A stretch of 6,967 nucleotides of DNA from Erythrobacter sp. (GTDB taxonomy: Bacteria > Pseudomonadota > Alphaproteobacteria > Sphingomonadales > Sphingomonadaceae). The DNA lies in the NCBI GenBank assembly GCA_002695185.1, contig NZOF01000191.1:13958-20924 (forward strand), given 5' to 3'. The notes below the pieces were generated by a model. That model did not search any database, was not told the origin of the DNA, and saw only the letters and a list, made by a program, of their open reading frames with translations. Made by a program: the position numbers and the translations under genes. Below, one piece after another: positions 1,354 to 6,775 of the stretch (positions are counted from its first letter, which is position 1; each line of letters opens with the position of its first letter).

Positions 1354-1671
1354 TCACTCCGAATCGGCATCGGGGGCAGCCTCTTTCGTCAGTCCCATCG
1401 CATCGGCCCGTGCCCAGAACGCATCGTGTTGGGCGGAGATTGCTCGGACACGGGTAAACGCTTCCTGCCGGGCCGCATCAAGACAGGCGATATAGGGGGT
1501 GAACTCAGAGAAATACCGCTCGAAATCCTCGGCCACCAGATCCGCATATTCACTGAAAGCTGGGTCGTCGGCCGGGATGAACGGCTCCTGCGGAGGAATG
1601 CACACCGTGTCCTGCGCGAGGGCAGGGCGAGCGAGCGTGAGGAACATCATTGCGGCCGCAATCGCCCTCAT
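1354..1671 (-). CDS. Small exported protein, translationally coupled to repC
   Basis: A 105-aa protein of unknown function. Residues 1-19 are a clear Sec signal peptide: basic start, hydrophobic core AAAMMFLTLA, cleavage after ALA-19. The mature part starts QDTVCIPP and is acidic, helical in character, rich in Tyr/Phe/Glu (SEYADLVAEDFERYFSEFTPY), with two cysteines (24 and 63) that could form a disulfide in the periplasm. The start ATG overlaps the repC stop as ATGA (1668-1671), so it should be translated by ribosomes finishing repC. An exported protein in the same operon as a replication initiator is unusual. Its function is not inferable, though a role in the envelope during transfer or maintenance is possible. 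Confidence 0.8.
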   Translation of the reverse strand: MRAIAAAMMFLTLARPALAQDTVCIPPQEPFIPADDPAFSEYADLVAEDFERYFSEFTPYIACLDAARQEAFTRVRAISAQHDAFWARADAMGLTKEAAPDADSE

Positions 1672-2924
1672 GACTGCGCCCCTGATTTACGCCGTTCATT
1701 AAGCCCGATCAGGCTACGGATCAGGTAAAGCTCGCCCCGCCGGTATCGTTCGGTCATGGCCCGCAAGTAGCCGCCGGGCTTGAAGATGGTATGACCCGGC
1801 TCGGATTTGCGGGCATCGAGGATCAGGATGGACAGCATGGCGCTATCCTCGCCCATAACCTCGCGCGCCGTGTTCCAGGCATCGGGGCTGATCCCGAGTT
1901 CCGGAACCCGCCGCTCGGCTGCCCAGACGAAGTCGTGGAATCGCAGATATTCCGGCTCTGCCCGTCCGCTGAGGTAGAGCTGCATGTCCGGCGAGGCGAG
2001 ATCGAAGAGCCTCTGTGGTCCAAGCCGGGCGATAAATTCGCTCTTGAGCGCTCCGCTGGCCTCCCCATCATCTTTTTCTCGGCAATTCGGGCCGCCGTCA
2101 GGCGGCACGACTTGGGACTTATCGTGCGCGGGCTTGCCCGCGCTCCGCATATTCACGGTCTCGTTACAGCATACTAAGGATTCTTGAGTTGTATCTTGTA
2201 TATAGGGTCGCTTGTTTTCGAGCGGTCCACCGCTTGTTTTTTCCCTGTTTCCGAGAAGATCCAGTGCGCTTCTGCAGAGCTCGTCCGCCTCTTCCAAATG
2301 CGCTGCAAGGTCCGCGAGGTTCATGCCATGAAGCCGATCGGCAGAAGGCCACGCTTCCGACTCGTGCCGCATTGCCTCGGCCTCCGGGCAGTGCGGGCTG
2401 ATCTCGAATAGGCGATCAAGCGCGCGCGCCAGATGGCGCTTGTGGGTACTGCGCTGACCGCGCAGGAAGATCGCCTGCTGCCGCTCCGCTGTGATCTGGT
2501 CATCCATCGTCATCAATTCGTCGGCACGGGCAATCGCCGCGCTGAAGTAAAGCCCAGTCCCGGCCGCCCGCGACCGGCTGCCATTCGCCCCTGTTCGGCG
2601 CTCTATCAGACCGGCGCGTTCCAGCTCGCCAGAGATTGCGCGGGTTCGCGACTGCGACAGGCCGAGCATCTTCGCGACTTCGCCGGCCTCCGCATAGATG
2701 AACGGGCTTCGGTCCGGGCTTGTCCAGTCGCTCGGTCGCGTCATAGTCGCTAGGCGCAAGAAGGCGTGCGCAGCGGCCGGCCCGACGCCAAGCCGCGGTG
2801 CCACGCGCTCGACCAGGGCCGCAAAGCTATCACGCTGCATGTTTCCCGGCAGAATTGGGTGCTCGTCTTCGGGGTCGCGGTAGACCCGCGTTGCGGCGGG
2901 ATGCACCGCCCTTTGAAATGCCAT
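1668..2924 (-). CDS. repC: RepC-type plasmid replication initiator
   Basis: A 418-aa protein of the RepC family, the initiator of repABC and solo-repC replicons. The N-terminal domain (about 30-175) includes the family phrase TMTRPSDWTSPDRSPFIYA (60-78) and a winged-helix region AGEVAKMLGLSQSRTRAIS (80-98) followed by ELERAGLIERR (100-110). A low-complexity polar linker (about 225-290) leads to a C-terminal domain (about 293-411) with LGPQRLFDLASPDMQLYL, PDAWNTAREVMG and FKPGGYLRAMTERYRRGEL, typical of the RepC C-terminal region. ATG 2924 is chosen over GTG 2936 because GAGGA sits 5 bases before the ATG and includes the end of that GTG codon. No repA or repB lies upstream in this window; the preceding gene encodes an exported protein. 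The leader contains a candidate antisense RNA gene, the usual RepC copy-number control, and the origin is expected inside the coding sequence. Confidence 0.87.
   Translation of the reverse strand: MAFQRAVHPAATRVYRDPEDEHPILPGNMQRDSFAALVERVAPRLGVGPAAAHAFLRLATMTRPSDWTSPDRSPFIYAEAGEVAKMLGLSQSRTRAISGELERAGLIERRTGANGSRSRAAGTGLYFSAAIARADELMTMDDQITAERQQAIFLRGQRSTHKRHLARALDRLFEISPHCPEAEAMRHESEAWPSADRLHGMNLADLAAHLEEADELCRSALDLLGNREKTSGGPLENKRPYIQDTTQESLVCCNETVNMRSAGKPAHDKSQVVPPDGGPNCREKDDGEASGALKSEFIARLGPQRLFDLASPDMQLYLSGRAEPEYLRFHDFVWAAERRVPELGISPDAWNTAREVMGEDSAMLSILILDARKSEPGHTIFKPGGYLRAMTERYRRGELYLIRSLIGLNERRKSGAQS
2160..2260. other. Putative replication origin (oriV) inside repC
   Basis: The middle of repC, encoding the linker between its two domains, is distinctly AT-rich against its surroundings: 2169-2205 is about two-thirds A+T by hand count. 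It is followed by short phased repeats (2209-2255). In characterised repABC plasmids the origin lies within repC, in an AT-rich part of the central coding sequence, and RepC binds there. The position and composition match, while origin activity is inferred. Confidence 0.5.
2209..2255. repeat. Helically phased short direct repeats in the repC AT-rich region
   Basis: CGCTTGTTTT occurs at 2209-2218 and again at 2231-2240, exactly 22 bases apart. A third, imperfect copy follows: CCTGTTTCCGAG (2244-2255) matches CTTGTTTTCGAG (2211-2222) at 10 of 12 positions. The three copies start 22 and then 11 bases apart, i.e. on the same face of the helix, as expected for iterons or initiator-binding sites. 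Only two copies are exact, so chance is not excluded. Confidence 0.5.
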
Positions 2925-2929
2925 ATCTG

Positions 2930-2934
2930 TCCTC
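2930..2934 (-). promoter_or_regulatory. Ribosome-binding site that fixes the repC start
   Basis: GAGGA on the minus strand with a 5-base spacer to ATG 2924. The competing in-frame GTG at 2936 overlaps this site and has no purine-rich element in front of it, so the ATG start, four codons shorter, is preferred. Confidence 0.65.
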
Positions 2935-2970
2935 ACATTCGCCGAGGCACAGGTTCCGCGGGCATGCCGG

Positions 2971-2986
2971 ATCTGTTCACACAGAT
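2971..2986 (-). repeat. Hairpin with GNRA loop in the repC leader
   Basis: ATCTGT (2971-2976) and ACAGAT (2981-2986) form a perfect 6-bp stem around 4 bases. In the repC-sense transcript the loop reads GUGA, a stable GNRA tetraloop; on the other strand it reads UCAC. The hairpin lies about 47 bases upstream of the repC start, between the antisense-RNA target and the ribosome-binding site. That is where repABC leaders carry the structure that decides whether repC is expressed. Its regulatory role is inferred. Confidence 0.4.
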
Positions 2987-3024
2987 GCGTTTTTGTTCTT
3001 GATTTTCGACTTTGGGAAGGTGAC

Positions 3025-3030
3025 TATGCT
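3025..3030 (+). promoter_or_regulatory. Possible -10 element for the antisense RNA
   Basis: TATGCT (4 of 6 to the sigma-70 consensus) lies about 7 bases before the predicted RNA start. No -35 hexamer has ideal spacing: TTGATT at 2999-3004 is 20 bases away and TCGACT at 3006-3011 only 13. The promoter call is therefore weak. Confidence 0.3.
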
Positions 3031-3036
3031 CGTAGC

Positions 3037-3112
3037 CTAGTGAGCAATGCAGGTCGCCAAACCTGTGTTACACCCAAAGCCCCCTCGTGCGGACCCCGTG
3101 CGGGGGGTTTTG
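3037..3112 (+). ncRNA. Candidate counter-transcribed RNA controlling repC
   Basis: On the strand opposite repC and ending near 3112, a short RNA of about 75 nt is predicted with two structures. Hairpin 1 pairs AATGCAGGT (3046-3054) with ACCTGTGTT (3061-3069) as a 9-bp stem including two G-U pairs, with loop CGCCAA. On the repC-sense strand those two pairs become C-A mismatches, so the fold favours the plus-strand RNA. Hairpin 2 is a strong terminator (3079-3108) followed by T's. A hairpin plus terminator of this size, antisense to the repC leader, is the known layout of repABC ctRNA (inc) genes, which lower RepC expression. The sense-strand loop contains UUGG, fitting the YUNR U-turn motif common at antisense contact sites. 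The 5' end is an estimate. Confidence 0.55.
3079..3111 (+). terminator. Rho-independent terminator of the candidate ctRNA
   Basis: GCCCCC (3079-3084) pairs with the G-run at 3103-3107, extended inward by GTGCGG (3087-3092) with CCGTGC (3096-3101) around the loop ACC, and outward by AAA/TTT. TTTT then GATTTT follows at 3108-3117. Stem strength and T-run are good for plus-strand termination. On the minus strand the structure is followed by only three T's, so it should terminate repC-sense transcription less well. Confidence 0.7.
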
Positions 3113-3176
3113 ATTTTCTGGTAATCTGTTTGCTTCTGCTCGTTTTCCTCCTTGGACGTGCGTTCCCGAATGCCAT

Positions 3177-3221: not shown

Positions 3222-3788
3222 TCAGTAGTTCGCCCATTCATATGAGGGCTGGCCCCGGTAATCGTGGTGTCGCATCAGGATCGCGTCAAAGTTTCCGAAA
3301 TCGCCTGCAAGGGTCGTGCCGGCATGGATCCGGATCTGATCATCGACCCAAGGTGGAGCGGCCAAAGGCGCCACCGACACACGCTGGAAATTGCCCGCAG
3401 CGTCGTAGAAACTACGCACGGCACGAGTCTCGGACGCGCGTCCCCCGCTGCTGTTCATTGACCGTTTCGACAGTTGCCAGACCTCGATGCTCTCCCGATA
3501 GAAACGGATTTCGCGAGAAGTCTCACCGGTTTCGGGCAACAGCTTATCAGCCCCCCCCATCGGACAGCGCCGGAACTGTAAGGGCGGCTCAATCGGCCAA
3601 GGGGTGATGCGCCGGATCATCTCCGCATGTGCCGCTGAGCATTCGACAGATGCAGGGAACCCACCAGCGATGCAGAGTAAGATCGCGCAATCGATTGAGT
3701 AGGCCCCGACCGGCTGAGCCATAGAGACAGGGAGGCCCATGAGAAGCAGACCCAAGATTGAACAGCGTGAGGTGCGTCGATAAATCAT
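3222..3788 (-). CDS. Exported protein with four conserved-looking cysteines
   Basis: A 188-aa protein of unknown function. Residues 1-29 are a signal peptide: RR near the start, core ILGLLLMGLPV, cleavage after SMA-24 or VGA-29. The mature N-terminus carries SIDCAILLCIAGGFPASVEC (31-50), then ITPWPIEPPL (61-70) and RRCP (73-76), giving Cys34, 39, 50 and 75. This block resembles, from memory, small exported proteins that recur in alphaproteobacterial plasmid and conjugative-element regions. The C-terminal third (120-188) is aromatic and Gly-rich. The start ATG 3788 is preceded by a weak AGG (3794-3796) and is buried in an 11-bp inverted repeat shared with the upstream stop codon. It is probably co-transcribed with the 70-aa gene 33 bases upstream. 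A role in transfer or the envelope is a guess from context. Confidence 0.75.
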   Translation of the reverse strand: MIYRRTSRCSILGLLLMGLPVSMAQPVGAYSIDCAILLCIAGGFPASVECSAAHAEMIRRITPWPIEPPLQFRRCPMGGADKLLPETGETSREIRFYRESIEVWQLSKRSMNSSGGRASETRAVRSFYDAAGNFQRVSVAPLAAPPWVDDQIRIHAGTTLAGDFGNFDAILMRHHDYRGQPSYEWANY

Positions 3789-4200: not shown

Positions 4201-5778
4201 TTGATCAAGAACGGAAAATATTTTTCCTTGCCGGATGATAGCGACGATGACTTCAAGTCGCTTTTCGTGCGTGTCGCAGCAACTGGCATCGGTCGCCCCG
4301 TCGACCGCGACGGCTGTCCGCAGGGGCCGTGGACACCCGAGTTGCTTGCCGAGGCTATTTCACAAATCGACGCCAATCGCACCGGGATCGAACTGAGGAC
4401 GGTTCAGCTCTGGTTTAACGATAACGAGAAAGGGATCAGCACCAGCAACATCAGGTGGCTCGCCAAAGTTCTGGGCTGCAACGATCCAGAAGGATCGAGT
4501 GCGTGGCAAGTTGCATTGATGAAGTCTCAGGCTCGCCTAGCGGCCCGCCGGCATTCGCGCAATCGGATCTCGGACAAAACAGAAGTGGGGGCCGTTGGCC
4601 CGGAAGAGCGCATCGCACCCGAGCAGTTTCGGGGCGATGTTTCTAGACCAAGGTTCGACCTCGCTCGCGTCTCGGAGGCAATCTTCAGTCGCGGGTCACC
4701 GCTGAACTTGCCTGCCTCGGTCTTCGCTGGCGCCGTCGCGCTGCAGTTCGTCTCGTACTTTCTGTCGATCCACAGCGTCACTTATGTCCGCGGTGACGGT
4801 GTCAGCAAGCAAATCGGGTTCCTCTGGGCGCCAAACTGGACTGTCGTTTTCCTGATCCTGATGCCCATCTTCTGCGCATTCGTTATCGATCAAGTGACAA
4901 CCTGGAAGAAGGAGAACCGCCCGGCACTCCTATCCTATCTCGGTGGGCATGACCGATCAGATCAATGGATTCGGAGGGTCGAGGCATCTTCCTACACCTA
5001 TTGGGCCGCGTTCTTGCTCTGTCTGGGTTTCGCGGGTGTCTTTCAGTGGGTGAGTGTCCGCCTAATTCCGCCGCTGCATGGCGACGGTACTTTCGCAGTA
5101 GACTGGGGATCTCTGGCCTTTGTGCTGCCTGGCGAGTTCGGGATCTTCCAGCAAGCCGCGTTTACCGGAGCCGCATATTTCTACATGAGCCTGTGCTTCT
5201 ACCTCTTCATCGCGGGCCTTGTCCTGCTATCTAATCTGGTGGATGACTTCGCGCATATCAGTAAGGCTTTGGTTCAGCAGAAAGGGCTCACGCCCCTGGA
5301 CATAGCACGGTCGACGGGATCGCGAATCATGCGAGGCATAGTACGCGCGTCGATCGCCGGACTTCTGACCGCAATGTGCATGAAGCTGCAAAGTCTGTAT
5401 GTCGTCACCGATGCGCCGAATATCGCTCAATGGCTCCTCTCCGACCTGAAATCAATCCTGACAAGCTTCGGCAGTGCGGTCGATTGGGGGGACTACAGTA
5501 TGCCAACCCATTTCACGAGCCTGCTTGTGGCGCTCATGGTGGCCACGGTCTACCTCTACGGCGCCATTCGCGTCTGTATCACCACTCCCTTTCACGTGCC
5601 ATTGGCAAGACCGACGATTGCGGTTTTGTTCCTTATCCTCGCCTACTTGCTGATCGGTCTCGTGACTGGCTTCTCGATCTTGCTAGCGATTGCGGTCTTC
5701 GTTGCCATCTATGGTCTCTTCGATCCCAATTTTGGCGATCGCTATCAGATGCAGGTGGATCCTCTGCATGTACCATAG
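4201..5778 (+). CDS. rcgA: RcgA family polytopic membrane protein (putative transporter)
   Basis: A 525-aa inner-membrane protein. Residues 1-165 are soluble. They include FVRVAATGIGRPVDRDGCPQ (22-41) and a helix-rich segment TPELLAEAIS...RTVQLWFNDNEKGIS...IRWLAKVLGC (45-93), which reads like a helix-turn-helix-type domain. About eight hydrophobic segments follow: near 171-190, 212-231, 265-289, 320-346, 378-397, 438-460, 472-490 and 491-507, with the charged loops KKENR (236-240) and QQKGLTPLDIARSTGSR (359-375). I recognise it from memory as the family called RcgA, 'putative transporter'; no transport motif or substrate site is visible. The start is TTG 4201: the frame is open back to 4081 but holds no other start codon, and no strong ribosome-binding site is seen. 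It overlaps the hydrolase start by 11 bases. A membrane-anchored regulator is an alternative reading. Confidence 0.75.
   Translation: MIKNGKYFSLPDDSDDDFKSLFVRVAATGIGRPVDRDGCPQGPWTPELLAEAISQIDANRTGIELRTVQLWFNDNEKGISTSNIRWLAKVLGCNDPEGSSAWQVALMKSQARLAARRHSRNRISDKTEVGAVGPEERIAPEQFRGDVSRPRFDLARVSEAIFSRGSPLNLPASVFAGAVALQFVSYFLSIHSVTYVRGDGVSKQIGFLWAPNWTVVFLILMPIFCAFVIDQVTTWKKENRPALLSYLGGHDRSDQWIRRVEASSYTYWAAFLLCLGFAGVFQWVSVRLIPPLHGDGTFAVDWGSLAFVLPGEFGIFQQAAFTGAAYFYMSLCFYLFIAGLVLLSNLVDDFAHISKALVQQKGLTPLDIARSTGSRIMRGIVRASIAGLLTAMCMKLQSLYVVTDAPNIAQWLLSDLKSILTSFGSAVDWGDYSMPTHFTSLLVALMVATVYLYGAIRVCITTPFHVPLARPTIAVLFLILAYLLIGLVTGFSILLAIAVFVAIYGLFDPNFGDRYQMQVDPLHVP
5753..5759 (+). promoter_or_regulatory. 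Ribosome-binding site that fixes the hydrolase start
   Basis: AGGTGGA lies 8 bases before ATG 5768. It supports that ATG over the in-frame TTG at 5690, which would extend the hydrolase 78 bases deeper into rcgA. Confidence 0.6.
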
Positions 5779-6775
5779 ATGGCTGGATCGCTGGGATGTG
5801 CGCCGCGGGCTGCGCAGTGATGATGCGAAGCGCACTACGAAGCTCGACCTCCGCGCAGACCTTGCGTTCCAAAAAGCGGGGTCTGCGGCCACTCTGGCTG
5901 AGTTTGCGGCGCTCGCAACTGCAGCCGTCGAAGATTCGCCCTCCTTTTATGAAGTGGAACCTCAAGCCTCGGTGGCGTGCTGGAAAGGCGGCTGGATCAG
6001 TTTTCCATCATGTGTTCGCACCGAAACTCCCGAGAACAACACGGTTTATGCCAAGGTTACAGAAGCCGAGTCATCCGATCATGCCCTGATTGTCTTCCAC
6101 CACTGGAACGCAACCTCGCGCAACGTGCAGCTTGCTCGCTTTTTCGCGTGGAGCGGTCTTACAGTTGTCGAGATGGCATTGCCATATCACCTTGAACGCC
6201 GCAGGCTAGGCTCAACGCACTCCGACTACATGCTAAGCCCGAATCTCGGCCGCACAATCCAGTCCATGCGCCAGGCTGTGCTAGACGGAAGGCAGCTTAC
6301 CGCCATCTTGCAGCGGAGTGGATACAGGAGAGTTTCCGTTCTCGGCATTAGCTTGGGGTCGTGGGTGGCGGGCCTTATCGCGGCTCACGAGCCCAAGATC
6401 ACGAAGGCGGCCTTGTTCCTCACGGGCGGCAGTCTCGCCGATATGGTGTGGACTGGAAGCGCCACGCGCCACATTCGCGCAAGCCTTGAAGGCGAGATCA
6501 AGCTTTGCGGGCTCCGGCGCGCTTGGGCGCCGCTCGACCTTGAGCGCTACGCCAACCGACTGGCACGTGCTGATCTAGAGATCCAAATGGTATTGGCCGA
6601 GCGAGACACAGTTGTGCTGCCTGCACTATCTGAGCGCCTGGTAGACGAGCTGGCTCAGTCGGGCACGCAGTCGCAGGTGATGAGGTTGAACTGCGGACAC
6701 TACTCCCTCAGCTTGCCACCCTACATTGTCAGGGCTGGCGTAAGCGCCAAGCGATTTTTCAACCGATCGGTCTGA
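5768..6775 (+). CDS. rcgR: RcgR family alpha/beta-hydrolase (putative quorum-lactone hydrolase)
   Basis: A 335-aa alpha/beta-hydrolase-fold protein with no signal peptide, so cytosolic. The nucleophile elbow GISLG (193-197) gives Ser195. The likely acid is Asp280 in VLAERD (275-280) and the base His311 in NCGHYS (308-313), in the usual order and spacing. HALIVFHHWNATSRN (105-119) fits the first strand and oxyanion-hole region, with HH at 111-112. A 60-residue N-terminal extension (WLDRWDVRRGLR and onward) precedes the fold. I recall this family as RcgR, annotated as a putative quorum-lactone hydrolase and found with RcgA; the lactone substrate is predicted, not visible in the sequence. It overlaps rcgA by 11 bases and is surely co-translated with it. 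Other hydrolase activities (esterase, lipase) remain possible. Confidence 0.77.
   Translation: MYHRWLDRWDVRRGLRSDDAKRTTKLDLRADLAFQKAGSAATLAEFAALATAAVEDSPSFYEVEPQASVACWKGGWISFPSCVRTETPENNTVYAKVTEAESSDHALIVFHHWNATSRNVQLARFFAWSGLTVVEMALPYHLERRRLGSTHSDYMLSPNLGRTIQSMRQAVLDGRQLTAILQRSGYRRVSVLGISLGSWVAGLIAAHEPKITKAALFLTGGSLADMVWTGSATRHIRASLEGEIKLCGLRRAWAPLDLERYANRLARADLEIQMVLAERDTVVLPALSERLVDELAQSGTQSQVMRLNCGHYSLSLPPYIVRAGVSAKRFFNRSV

Follow-up and report, generated by a model that had tools for sequence, protein, structure and literature searches.

A candidate antisense-RNA control leader shared by solo repC and unrelated helix-turn-helix protein genes of Paracoccus-type plasmids

We analysed a stretch of 6,967 nucleotides assigned to Erythrobacter sp. 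(GenBank assembly GCA_002695185.1, contig NZOF01000191.1, positions 13,958 to 20,924 of the forward strand; the whole stretch is called the window below), in which a repC gene on the minus strand is preceded by a leader that contains, on the opposite strand, a putative gene for a countertranscribed RNA (ctRNA) (Table 1). The RepC protein matches the Pfam families RP-C (5.4e-14) and RP-C_C (4e-16), scores 96 bits against the NCBIfam model RepABC_RepC, i.e. below its 150-bit cut-off, and is 73-87% identical to its closest matches, found in ten Paracoccus records and contigs. Its start at ATG 2924 is favoured over GTG 2936 because it is conserved in relatives and is preceded by the GAGGA box. Neither repA nor repB was recognised in the window, by Pfam scan or by tblastn with three RepA and three RepB queries, and of 80 related loci, counting the window, 76 showed no recognisable repA or repB upstream (span at least 1.1 kb, mostly 1.5-3.8 kb), which agrees with an earlier note on this DNA that had described a repC without repB upstream. 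The gene is thus a RepC_soli, a RepC without adjoining repAB, within the 7 kb of the replicon that are known; repAB or repABC may lie elsewhere on it.

Table 1. Positions of repC, its leader elements and the adjoining upstream gene in the window
Feature	Positions	Strand	Remarks
repC	1668..2924	-	418 aa from ATG 2924; GTG 2936 is an alternative, less likely start
mRNA hairpin S (predicted)	2927..2952	-	2943-2952 pairs with 2927-2935, covering the Shine-Dalgarno box
Shine-Dalgarno box GAGGA of repC	2930..2934	-	5 nt before ATG 2924; position kept in relatives
Long-range helix, strand D (downstream)	2947..2960	-	pairs with 3088-3101
Putative ctRNA promoter	2999..3027	+	TTGATT (2999-3004), 17 nt, GACTAT (3022-3027)
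mRNA hairpin H0	3028..3045	-	3028-3031 with 3042-3045; loop presents the patch
ctRNA gene (putative)	3034..3112	+	start from -10 box, ±2 nt; end in T tract, 3111-3117
Hypervariable patch CTAGT	3037..3041	both	mRNA loop and ctRNA 5' tail; 5-8 nt in relatives
ctRNA hairpin H1	3046..3069	+	3046-3054/3061-3069, 9 bp, two G-U pairs
ctRNA terminator hairpin and T tract	3075..3112	+	stem ending in T run
Long-range helix, strand T (upstream)	3088..3101	-	opposite strand is the ctRNA terminator hairpin
Upstream gene	3222..3788	-	found with the module at 70 of 80 loci (counting the window)

The putative ctRNA would be complementary to the leader of the repC mRNA rather than to its coding part. On the plus strand, 3037-3115 folds with -39.9 kcal/mol, as against -24.2 kcal/mol (standard deviation 3.3) for dinucleotide shuffles, none of 200 of which equalled it (z -4.84). 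This result is consistent with the 9-bp hairpin and strong terminator that the earlier note had read in a plus-strand RNA, which it correctly placed, given ATG 2924, 110-190 bases before the repC start. The terminator stem comprises 12 pairs, 9 of them G-C; terminator-like sites across the window do not exceed chance (4, with 5.2 expected, standard deviation 2.5). The strand polarity that had been ascribed to the G-U pairs was counted in 22 aligned leaders, i.e. the window and 21 relatives. The site 3048-3067 pairs on the plus strand in 20 leaders and on the minus strand in none; the corresponding counts are 15 and 2 for 3049-3066, 22 and 2 for 3088-3100, and 20 and 11 for 3089-3099, such that the plus strand is favoured overall, with one of the four sites pairing on the minus strand in half of the leaders. 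The sense loop does carry UUGG as claimed, but the YUNR-like motif seen in it, judged by eye, is not present in all relatives (e.g. L021; L-, G- and C-labels denote the leader loci compared, genomes and contigs, respectively). Chance occurrence of a YUNR motif is frequent in an 8-nt loop.

A scan for sigma-70 promoters found no consensus site at the position of the putative ctRNA promoter, and GACTAT agrees with the -10 consensus at only 3 of 6 bases. Nevertheless, among 46 leaders caught by a pattern permitting 17-23 nt between CTTGA and the -10 box, the distance from CTTGA to the (A/G)ACT(A/G)T box is 19 nt in 45, although the intervening bases vary. The ctRNA start (3034, ±2 nt) was placed from these boxes.

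Both ctRNA hairpins are kept, with compensatory changes, in the aligned leaders (20 sequences, window included); the earlier note had named their loss in homologous leaders as evidence that would speak against it, and the outcome is in its favour. Over the 25-pair structure 95.1% of the alignment cells are paired, compared with 89.7% in shuffles, with nine doubly changed pairs, and none of 500 shuffles was as high. A search with the leader DNA returned 17 plasmid records, all from Paracoccus, with 69-82% identity over 43-71% of the query, although some of the RepC proteins of these records are only 29-33% identical (L010, L014, L015). Duplicates (L032, L035 and L088, being the replicons of L016, L019 and L021), loci at contig ends (L085, L087) and L098 and L100 were excluded from the statistics on promoter spacing, patch variability, long-range pairing, hairpin S and leader folding. 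The plasmid matches H64, near H63, and H75, equal in length to contig C11 of G045 (L081), were not used as plasmid records.

The same type of leader stands before three kinds of protein. Downstream of 77 leader loci lie RepC in 40, a helix-turn-helix (HTH) protein of ~260 aa in 31 (two recognised by tblastn), an HTH protein of ~311 aa in two, and none in four, the latter being contig ends, a remnant or chance; without three duplicates, the respective numbers are 39, 29, 2 and 4 of 74. In the protein comparison, which left out proteins shorter than 150 aa and alignments shorter than 100 aa, no BLAST similarity was found between RepC and the ~260-aa protein, and profile comparison with hhalign gave a probability of 0.1 on a percent scale; homology between the two was rejected. 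The ~311-aa protein, a third initiator candidate that follows the same leader type in L095, L092 and L064, likewise gave no similarity to RepC by BLAST, the one method applied to this pair. L042, in which a leader of the HTH group precedes RepC, is the only such case among 34 group-B leaders and a direct sign of exchange. The leader thus behaves as an exchangeable module, i.e. as the same control region before non-homologous initiators, in so far as the HTH proteins, as we infer, initiate replication. In four loci (L040, L047, L103, L104) repA and repB lie upstream of the leader and the ~260-aa HTH protein gene, an arrangement resembling a repABC operon with an initiator candidate other than RepC.

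The ~260-aa HTH protein is probably a replication initiator. It is weakly similar to phage O-like replication proteins (PHROG, E 1e-4 to 2e-3), and among the 120 matches listed for it two bear the name 'replication protein A'; where the rest have names, these are helix-turn-helix or hypothetical protein. An HTH_36-type domain is weakly recognisable, below the Pfam cut-off, in three of four copies tested, and a 60-kb plasmid carrying the gene has no other annotated initiator in 57 kb of an incomplete gene table. Searching by fold with a relative of the protein (model with a predicted local distance difference test score, pLDDT, of 70) gave no match at E 0.001 or better among 872; winged-helix regulators and transcription factors make up most of the best 50 of these, in which a 'Rep-DNA complex' chain ranks 33rd and an 'initiator' 50th, and no solved structure was found by sequence. 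HTH_36 proteins have been reported as initiators on other Paracoccus plasmids (PMC3832669, PMC6209633).

With respect to distribution, a covariance model, R1, was built from 22 sequences. Searched against 125 Paracoccus genomes, it gave 60 matches spread over 41 of them, and these 60 include the replicons of several training sequences. A search of the wider family (394 genomes, stricter filters, 10 candidates scored each) matched 18 genomes, with the centre genome G001 giving the only strong match and the other 17 weak ones of 28-35 bits. Six of these 18 loci (L056-L073) adjoin RepC, the ~311-aa protein or the upstream gene (L056, L057, L058, L064, L065, L070). The other 12 gave no tblastn match and have the appearance of plain terminators. 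L098, on a 3.3-Mb contig of G045, was rejected as a chance terminator match. More distant solo-repC leaders (L022-L024) score 20-21 bits with R1, and the long-range pairing described below is predicted to be kept in them. The 3.6-Mb contig C1 of G122 carries, at L100, the promoter, H0 and H1 with neither terminator nor recognised rep gene, and is probably the site of a chromosomal remnant. Overall, the leader family is common in Paracoccus, where unrelated replication genes appear to have exchanged it.

A further hairpin, H0, is assigned to the mRNA, since its outer arm lies upstream of the deduced ctRNA start. In relatives all four of its pairs have changes on both sides, with 88.6% of cells paired, the arms being GCTC/GAGC in one leader group and AGCA/TGCT in another. 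The patch in its loop differs between leaders by a mean of 0.56 per nt in group A and 0.50 in group B. The corresponding means (A/B) are 0.24/0.22 in the promoter spacer, 0.27/0.23 in the linker, 0.03/0.06 in H1 and 0.05/0.005 in the terminator. Pair by pair, the patch exceeds the promoter spacer in variability in 93 of 105 comparisons of group A (less in 10) and in 434 of 465 of group B (less in 22). The patch is likely to set incompatibility specificity. In repABC plasmids, Rivera-Urbalejo 2015 reportedly mapped incompatibility to the 5' end of the ctRNA, and the natural variation of the patch would match that mapping. Two or three ctRNA matches are carried by 16 of the 41 positive genomes (one of the three in G045 being the chance terminator), and on one 114-kb contig (G036 C5) two modules with different patches lie together (L034 and L078). 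The H0 loop of the window shows two differences to the loop on a P. maritimus contig (L006/L028) and at least three to those of the other 14 group-A leaders compared. Compatibility forecasts from few bases would thus become possible.

On the mRNA strand RNAalifold predicts a long-range helix between strands T and D, the partners being about 130-150 bases apart; 98.6% of its cells are paired, a single double change (A-U/G-C) is seen, which occurs in 9 of 20 leaders, and in the window the outermost pair (3088-2960) is an A-C mismatch. The T and D strands of the same leader fit each other better than permuted partners do (-24.2 compared with -19.9 kcal/mol, standard deviation 1.0, for 13 clusters); this fit was matched in 0 of 20000 permutations with 13 or with 25 clusters, in 36 of 20000 with 8 and in 28 of 20000 with 6. 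Hairpin S pairs at least two of the five bases of the Shine-Dalgarno (SD) box in 23 of 23 representatives (from 25 clusters, L092 and L095 having no recognisable SD pattern), and a change of the SD box from GAGG to CAGG is matched in its arm by CCUC to CCUG. Because both use 2947-2952, hairpin S and the long-range helix are mutually exclusive, and the shared strand suggests a switch. A two-state mRNA model has been described for repABC leaders (PMC3155836, PMC6090056).

Taken together, we favour, with a probability of about 0.68 for the explanation as a whole, the view that the region is the replication-control leader of a Paracoccus-type solo-repC plasmid and constitutes a portable ctRNA copy-control unit, with specificity set by the patch and a switch that occludes the SD box. 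The comparisons themselves show conserved and covarying RNA elements, a variable patch and a leader common to several genes. In the mechanism that we infer, from transcription through RNA-RNA contact and inhibition to incompatibility and the order of the structural switch, a ctRNA made from its own promoter would pair with the leader of the repC mRNA, first contact being made between the single-stranded 5' tail of the ctRNA and the H0 loop, and the 5-8 variable bases at this contact site would decide which plasmids inhibit each other. When the ctRNA is absent, 3088-3101 would pair with 2947-2960, leaving the SD box uncovered and allowing RepC to be made; when the ctRNA is bound to the upstream strand, 2943-2952 would instead pair with 2927-2935 and RepC synthesis would stop. 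More plasmid copies would thereby give more ctRNA, less RepC and less replication. Since target and inhibitor are encoded by the same DNA, such a unit could, we propose, work before any initiator gene, as in its joining to RepC and to the ~260-aa and ~311-aa HTH proteins.

Several observations weigh against this explanation, in particular against the switch. Against plain shuffles, hairpin S often shows no gain in stability (z from +0.6 to -3.0, with +0.3 for the window), nor does the leader as a whole exceed its shuffles (z +0.40). In the close alignment the long-range helix has a single doubly changed pair, a number reached by 219 of 500 shuffles. Sliding the helix register by -2 raises the covariation score (0.161 compared with 0.139), and in the test with 13 clusters, which share ancestry, the own partner was the best in only 5 of 13 rows. 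Equilibrium partition-function folding of 70 leaders (L054, L092 and L095 were left out as no SD pattern was found) gave no general switch: mean SD accessibility was 0.23 in free leaders and 0.20 when the ctRNA region was blocked (blocks confined to the H0/H1 part or to the terminator part gave 0.24 and 0.21, respectively), and blocking the whole region lowered accessibility by more than 0.2 in 8 of 70 leaders and raised it in three. For the window itself the free value is 0.32; blocking the whole ctRNA region reduces it to 0.06, but blocking the terminator part alone gives 0.40. With respect to incompatibility, coexisting pairs of the same leader group with at most two H0-loop differences number 0 of 14, compared with 47 of 587 pairs between genomes (47 sequences in two leader groups recognised by pattern, with L032, L035 and L100 dropped), which agrees with the proposal but is not significant, as only about one would be expected.

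The lack of a general SD release in equilibrium folds, which holds for most leaders, would be accommodated if binding of the ctRNA led instead to early termination of transcription of the repC leader, i.e. to attenuation, as proposed for p42d and pTiR10 and published as the mechanism of repABC leaders (PMC3155836, PMC6090056). We nevertheless consider attenuation unlikely here: no terminator on the minus strand of the window came out of the terminator scan, hairpin S has only AUGGCAUUUC-like sequence after it and itself overlaps the SD region, and SD changes are matched in the complementary arm (GAGG/CCUC, CAGG/CCUG). A purely DNA-level reason for conservation, such as an origin or an initiator-binding site, or an mRNA structure, in either case with no functional antisense RNA, might be invoked in view of the high DNA identity and the promoter that is weak by consensus. 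It is, however, very improbable, given that the compensatory changes and the G-U pairs require a plus-strand RNA that pairs with itself, that unrelated initiators behind one leader would not be expected to share binding sites, and that the origin of p42d, a repABC plasmid, is located within repC (PMC3155836).

It also seems quite improbable that the ctRNA is a repABC ctRNA left over after loss of repA and repB, despite the relationship of the RepC to those of repABC operons and the four loci with repA-repB directly upstream of the same leader, which carry the HTH protein rather than RepC. The covariance-model search that the earlier note had suggested, against Rfam with ctRNA_p42d (RF00489) included, gave no match in the window up to E 1, and RF00489 gave none up to E 0.1 in the R1-bearing loci L012, L014 and L104. 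Plasmid pTAV1 carries both types: ctRNA_p42d matches its repABC operon (L108) between repB and the next open reading frame, with 29.4 bits (gathering threshold 50), but not, up to E 0.1, its solo-repC leader (L014), which is matched by R1. Conversely, R1 matches none of five repB loci (L106-L110). ctRNA_p42d is itself an insensitive test, because it matched only two of these five (L107, L108; 29.4 bits, below the gathering threshold). The remnant explanation was rejected on the absence of an Rfam match in the window and of R1 from the repB loci.

To return to the favoured explanation, a portable ctRNA copy-control leader, several of its elements have precedents. The earlier note recognised the logic of a ctRNA-controlled leader, and the anatomy of such a control region is indeed present, but its presentation of a ctRNA outside the repABC setting as a novelty does not stand: one has been reported for the repC-family plasmid pRmeGR4a of Sinorhizobium (Izquierdo 2005, via PMC10194956), where it is a negative regulator of repC and an incompatibility factor, a ctRNA on a repC plasmid is also mentioned elsewhere (PMC2783167), and another is predicted for pSmeLPU88b (PMC10194956). 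As in these plasmids, where the antisense gene lies in the leader of a repC without repA or repB in the operon (PMC10194956), a predicted antisense gene in the window falls in the leader of its solo repC, as seen both in its sequence and by comparison. RepC_soli is likewise an already recognised plasmid type. The pRmeGR4a ctRNA is said to be 67 nt long with a single stem-loop, unlike that of the window, which would have two hairpins in ~78 nt and a hairpin with the patch on the mRNA side. The repABC ctRNAs (RF00489 ctRNA_p42d, IncA, RepE) are also antisense to the repC leader, with two alternative mRNA folds and a terminator hairpin, but lie between repB and repC, whereas the window has no repB, the upstream gene in its place and no Rfam match. 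By the models used here the ctRNA appears to be a new family separate from those of repABC.

Also comparable are the REx-C/REx-R modules of Pseudomonas, in which a small control region with a putative antisense RNA is common to non-homologous initiators, exchange has been tested experimentally, and a few base changes in a stem-loop overcome incompatibility; they differ in being from Gammaproteobacteria and in RNA structure and initiators (RepA-PFP, RepJ and others) (PMC5304414). Solo RepC replicons without repAB are described as RepC_soli plasmids in Rhodobacteraceae, the word 'antisense' occurring 0 times in the accessible text of these sources (PMC4148982, PMC9025767). HTH_36-type initiators are known from modules of the Paracoccus plasmids pAES7, pMARC3, pMOS2, pYEE7 and pYEE8, the domain type that the ~260-aa protein weakly shows; iteron-like origins, but no antisense leader, are described in section 12 of PMC3832669.

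Around the module, the upstream gene has no Pfam or NCBIfam match; by eye, its product has a signal peptide and a conserved IDCAILLC motif. A small gene (1354-1671, minus strand), also with no match in either database, overlaps the repC stop; at 31 of 80 loci a relative of it follows the module. An imuA-like gene lies at 165-920 on the minus strand (61 bits, under the NCBIfam cut-off of 150), and a plus-strand rcgA-rcgR pair occupies 4201-6775, named from NCBIfam families (628 and 532 bits) and reported for conjugation of rhizobial plasmids (PMC9601222); a RcgA relative lies within the compared DNA of 23 of 80 loci.

The earlier note identified a control region that comparison upholds, but it missed H0, the patch, the long-range helix and the sharing of the leader with other proteins. 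What appears to be new is a distinct RNA family, a leader common to RepC and two other proteins, a patch within a covarying hairpin and the long-range helix; no ctRNA for solo repC or HTH plasmids of Paracoccus was found in the literature searched, which left subscription papers mostly out of reach. On comparative grounds the leader is a real and well-conserved control unit of the antisense type, the interest of which lies in its portability and its patch. On balance, we lean towards the broader proposal that Alphaproteobacteria possess a self-contained antisense-RNA unit for copy control which has been transferred among three or more unrelated initiators, with one 5-8-nt patch, which would be presented both in an mRNA loop and in the free 5' tail of the ctRNA, recoding its specificity. 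If so, this would, as far as that literature reaches, be the first RNA family described as controlling Paracoccus plasmids of the solo-repC and HTH types, and would extend to Alphaproteobacteria the portable control modules tested in Pseudomonas. It would also allow two or three plasmids whose control units are almost the same to coexist in a single Paracoccus cell.

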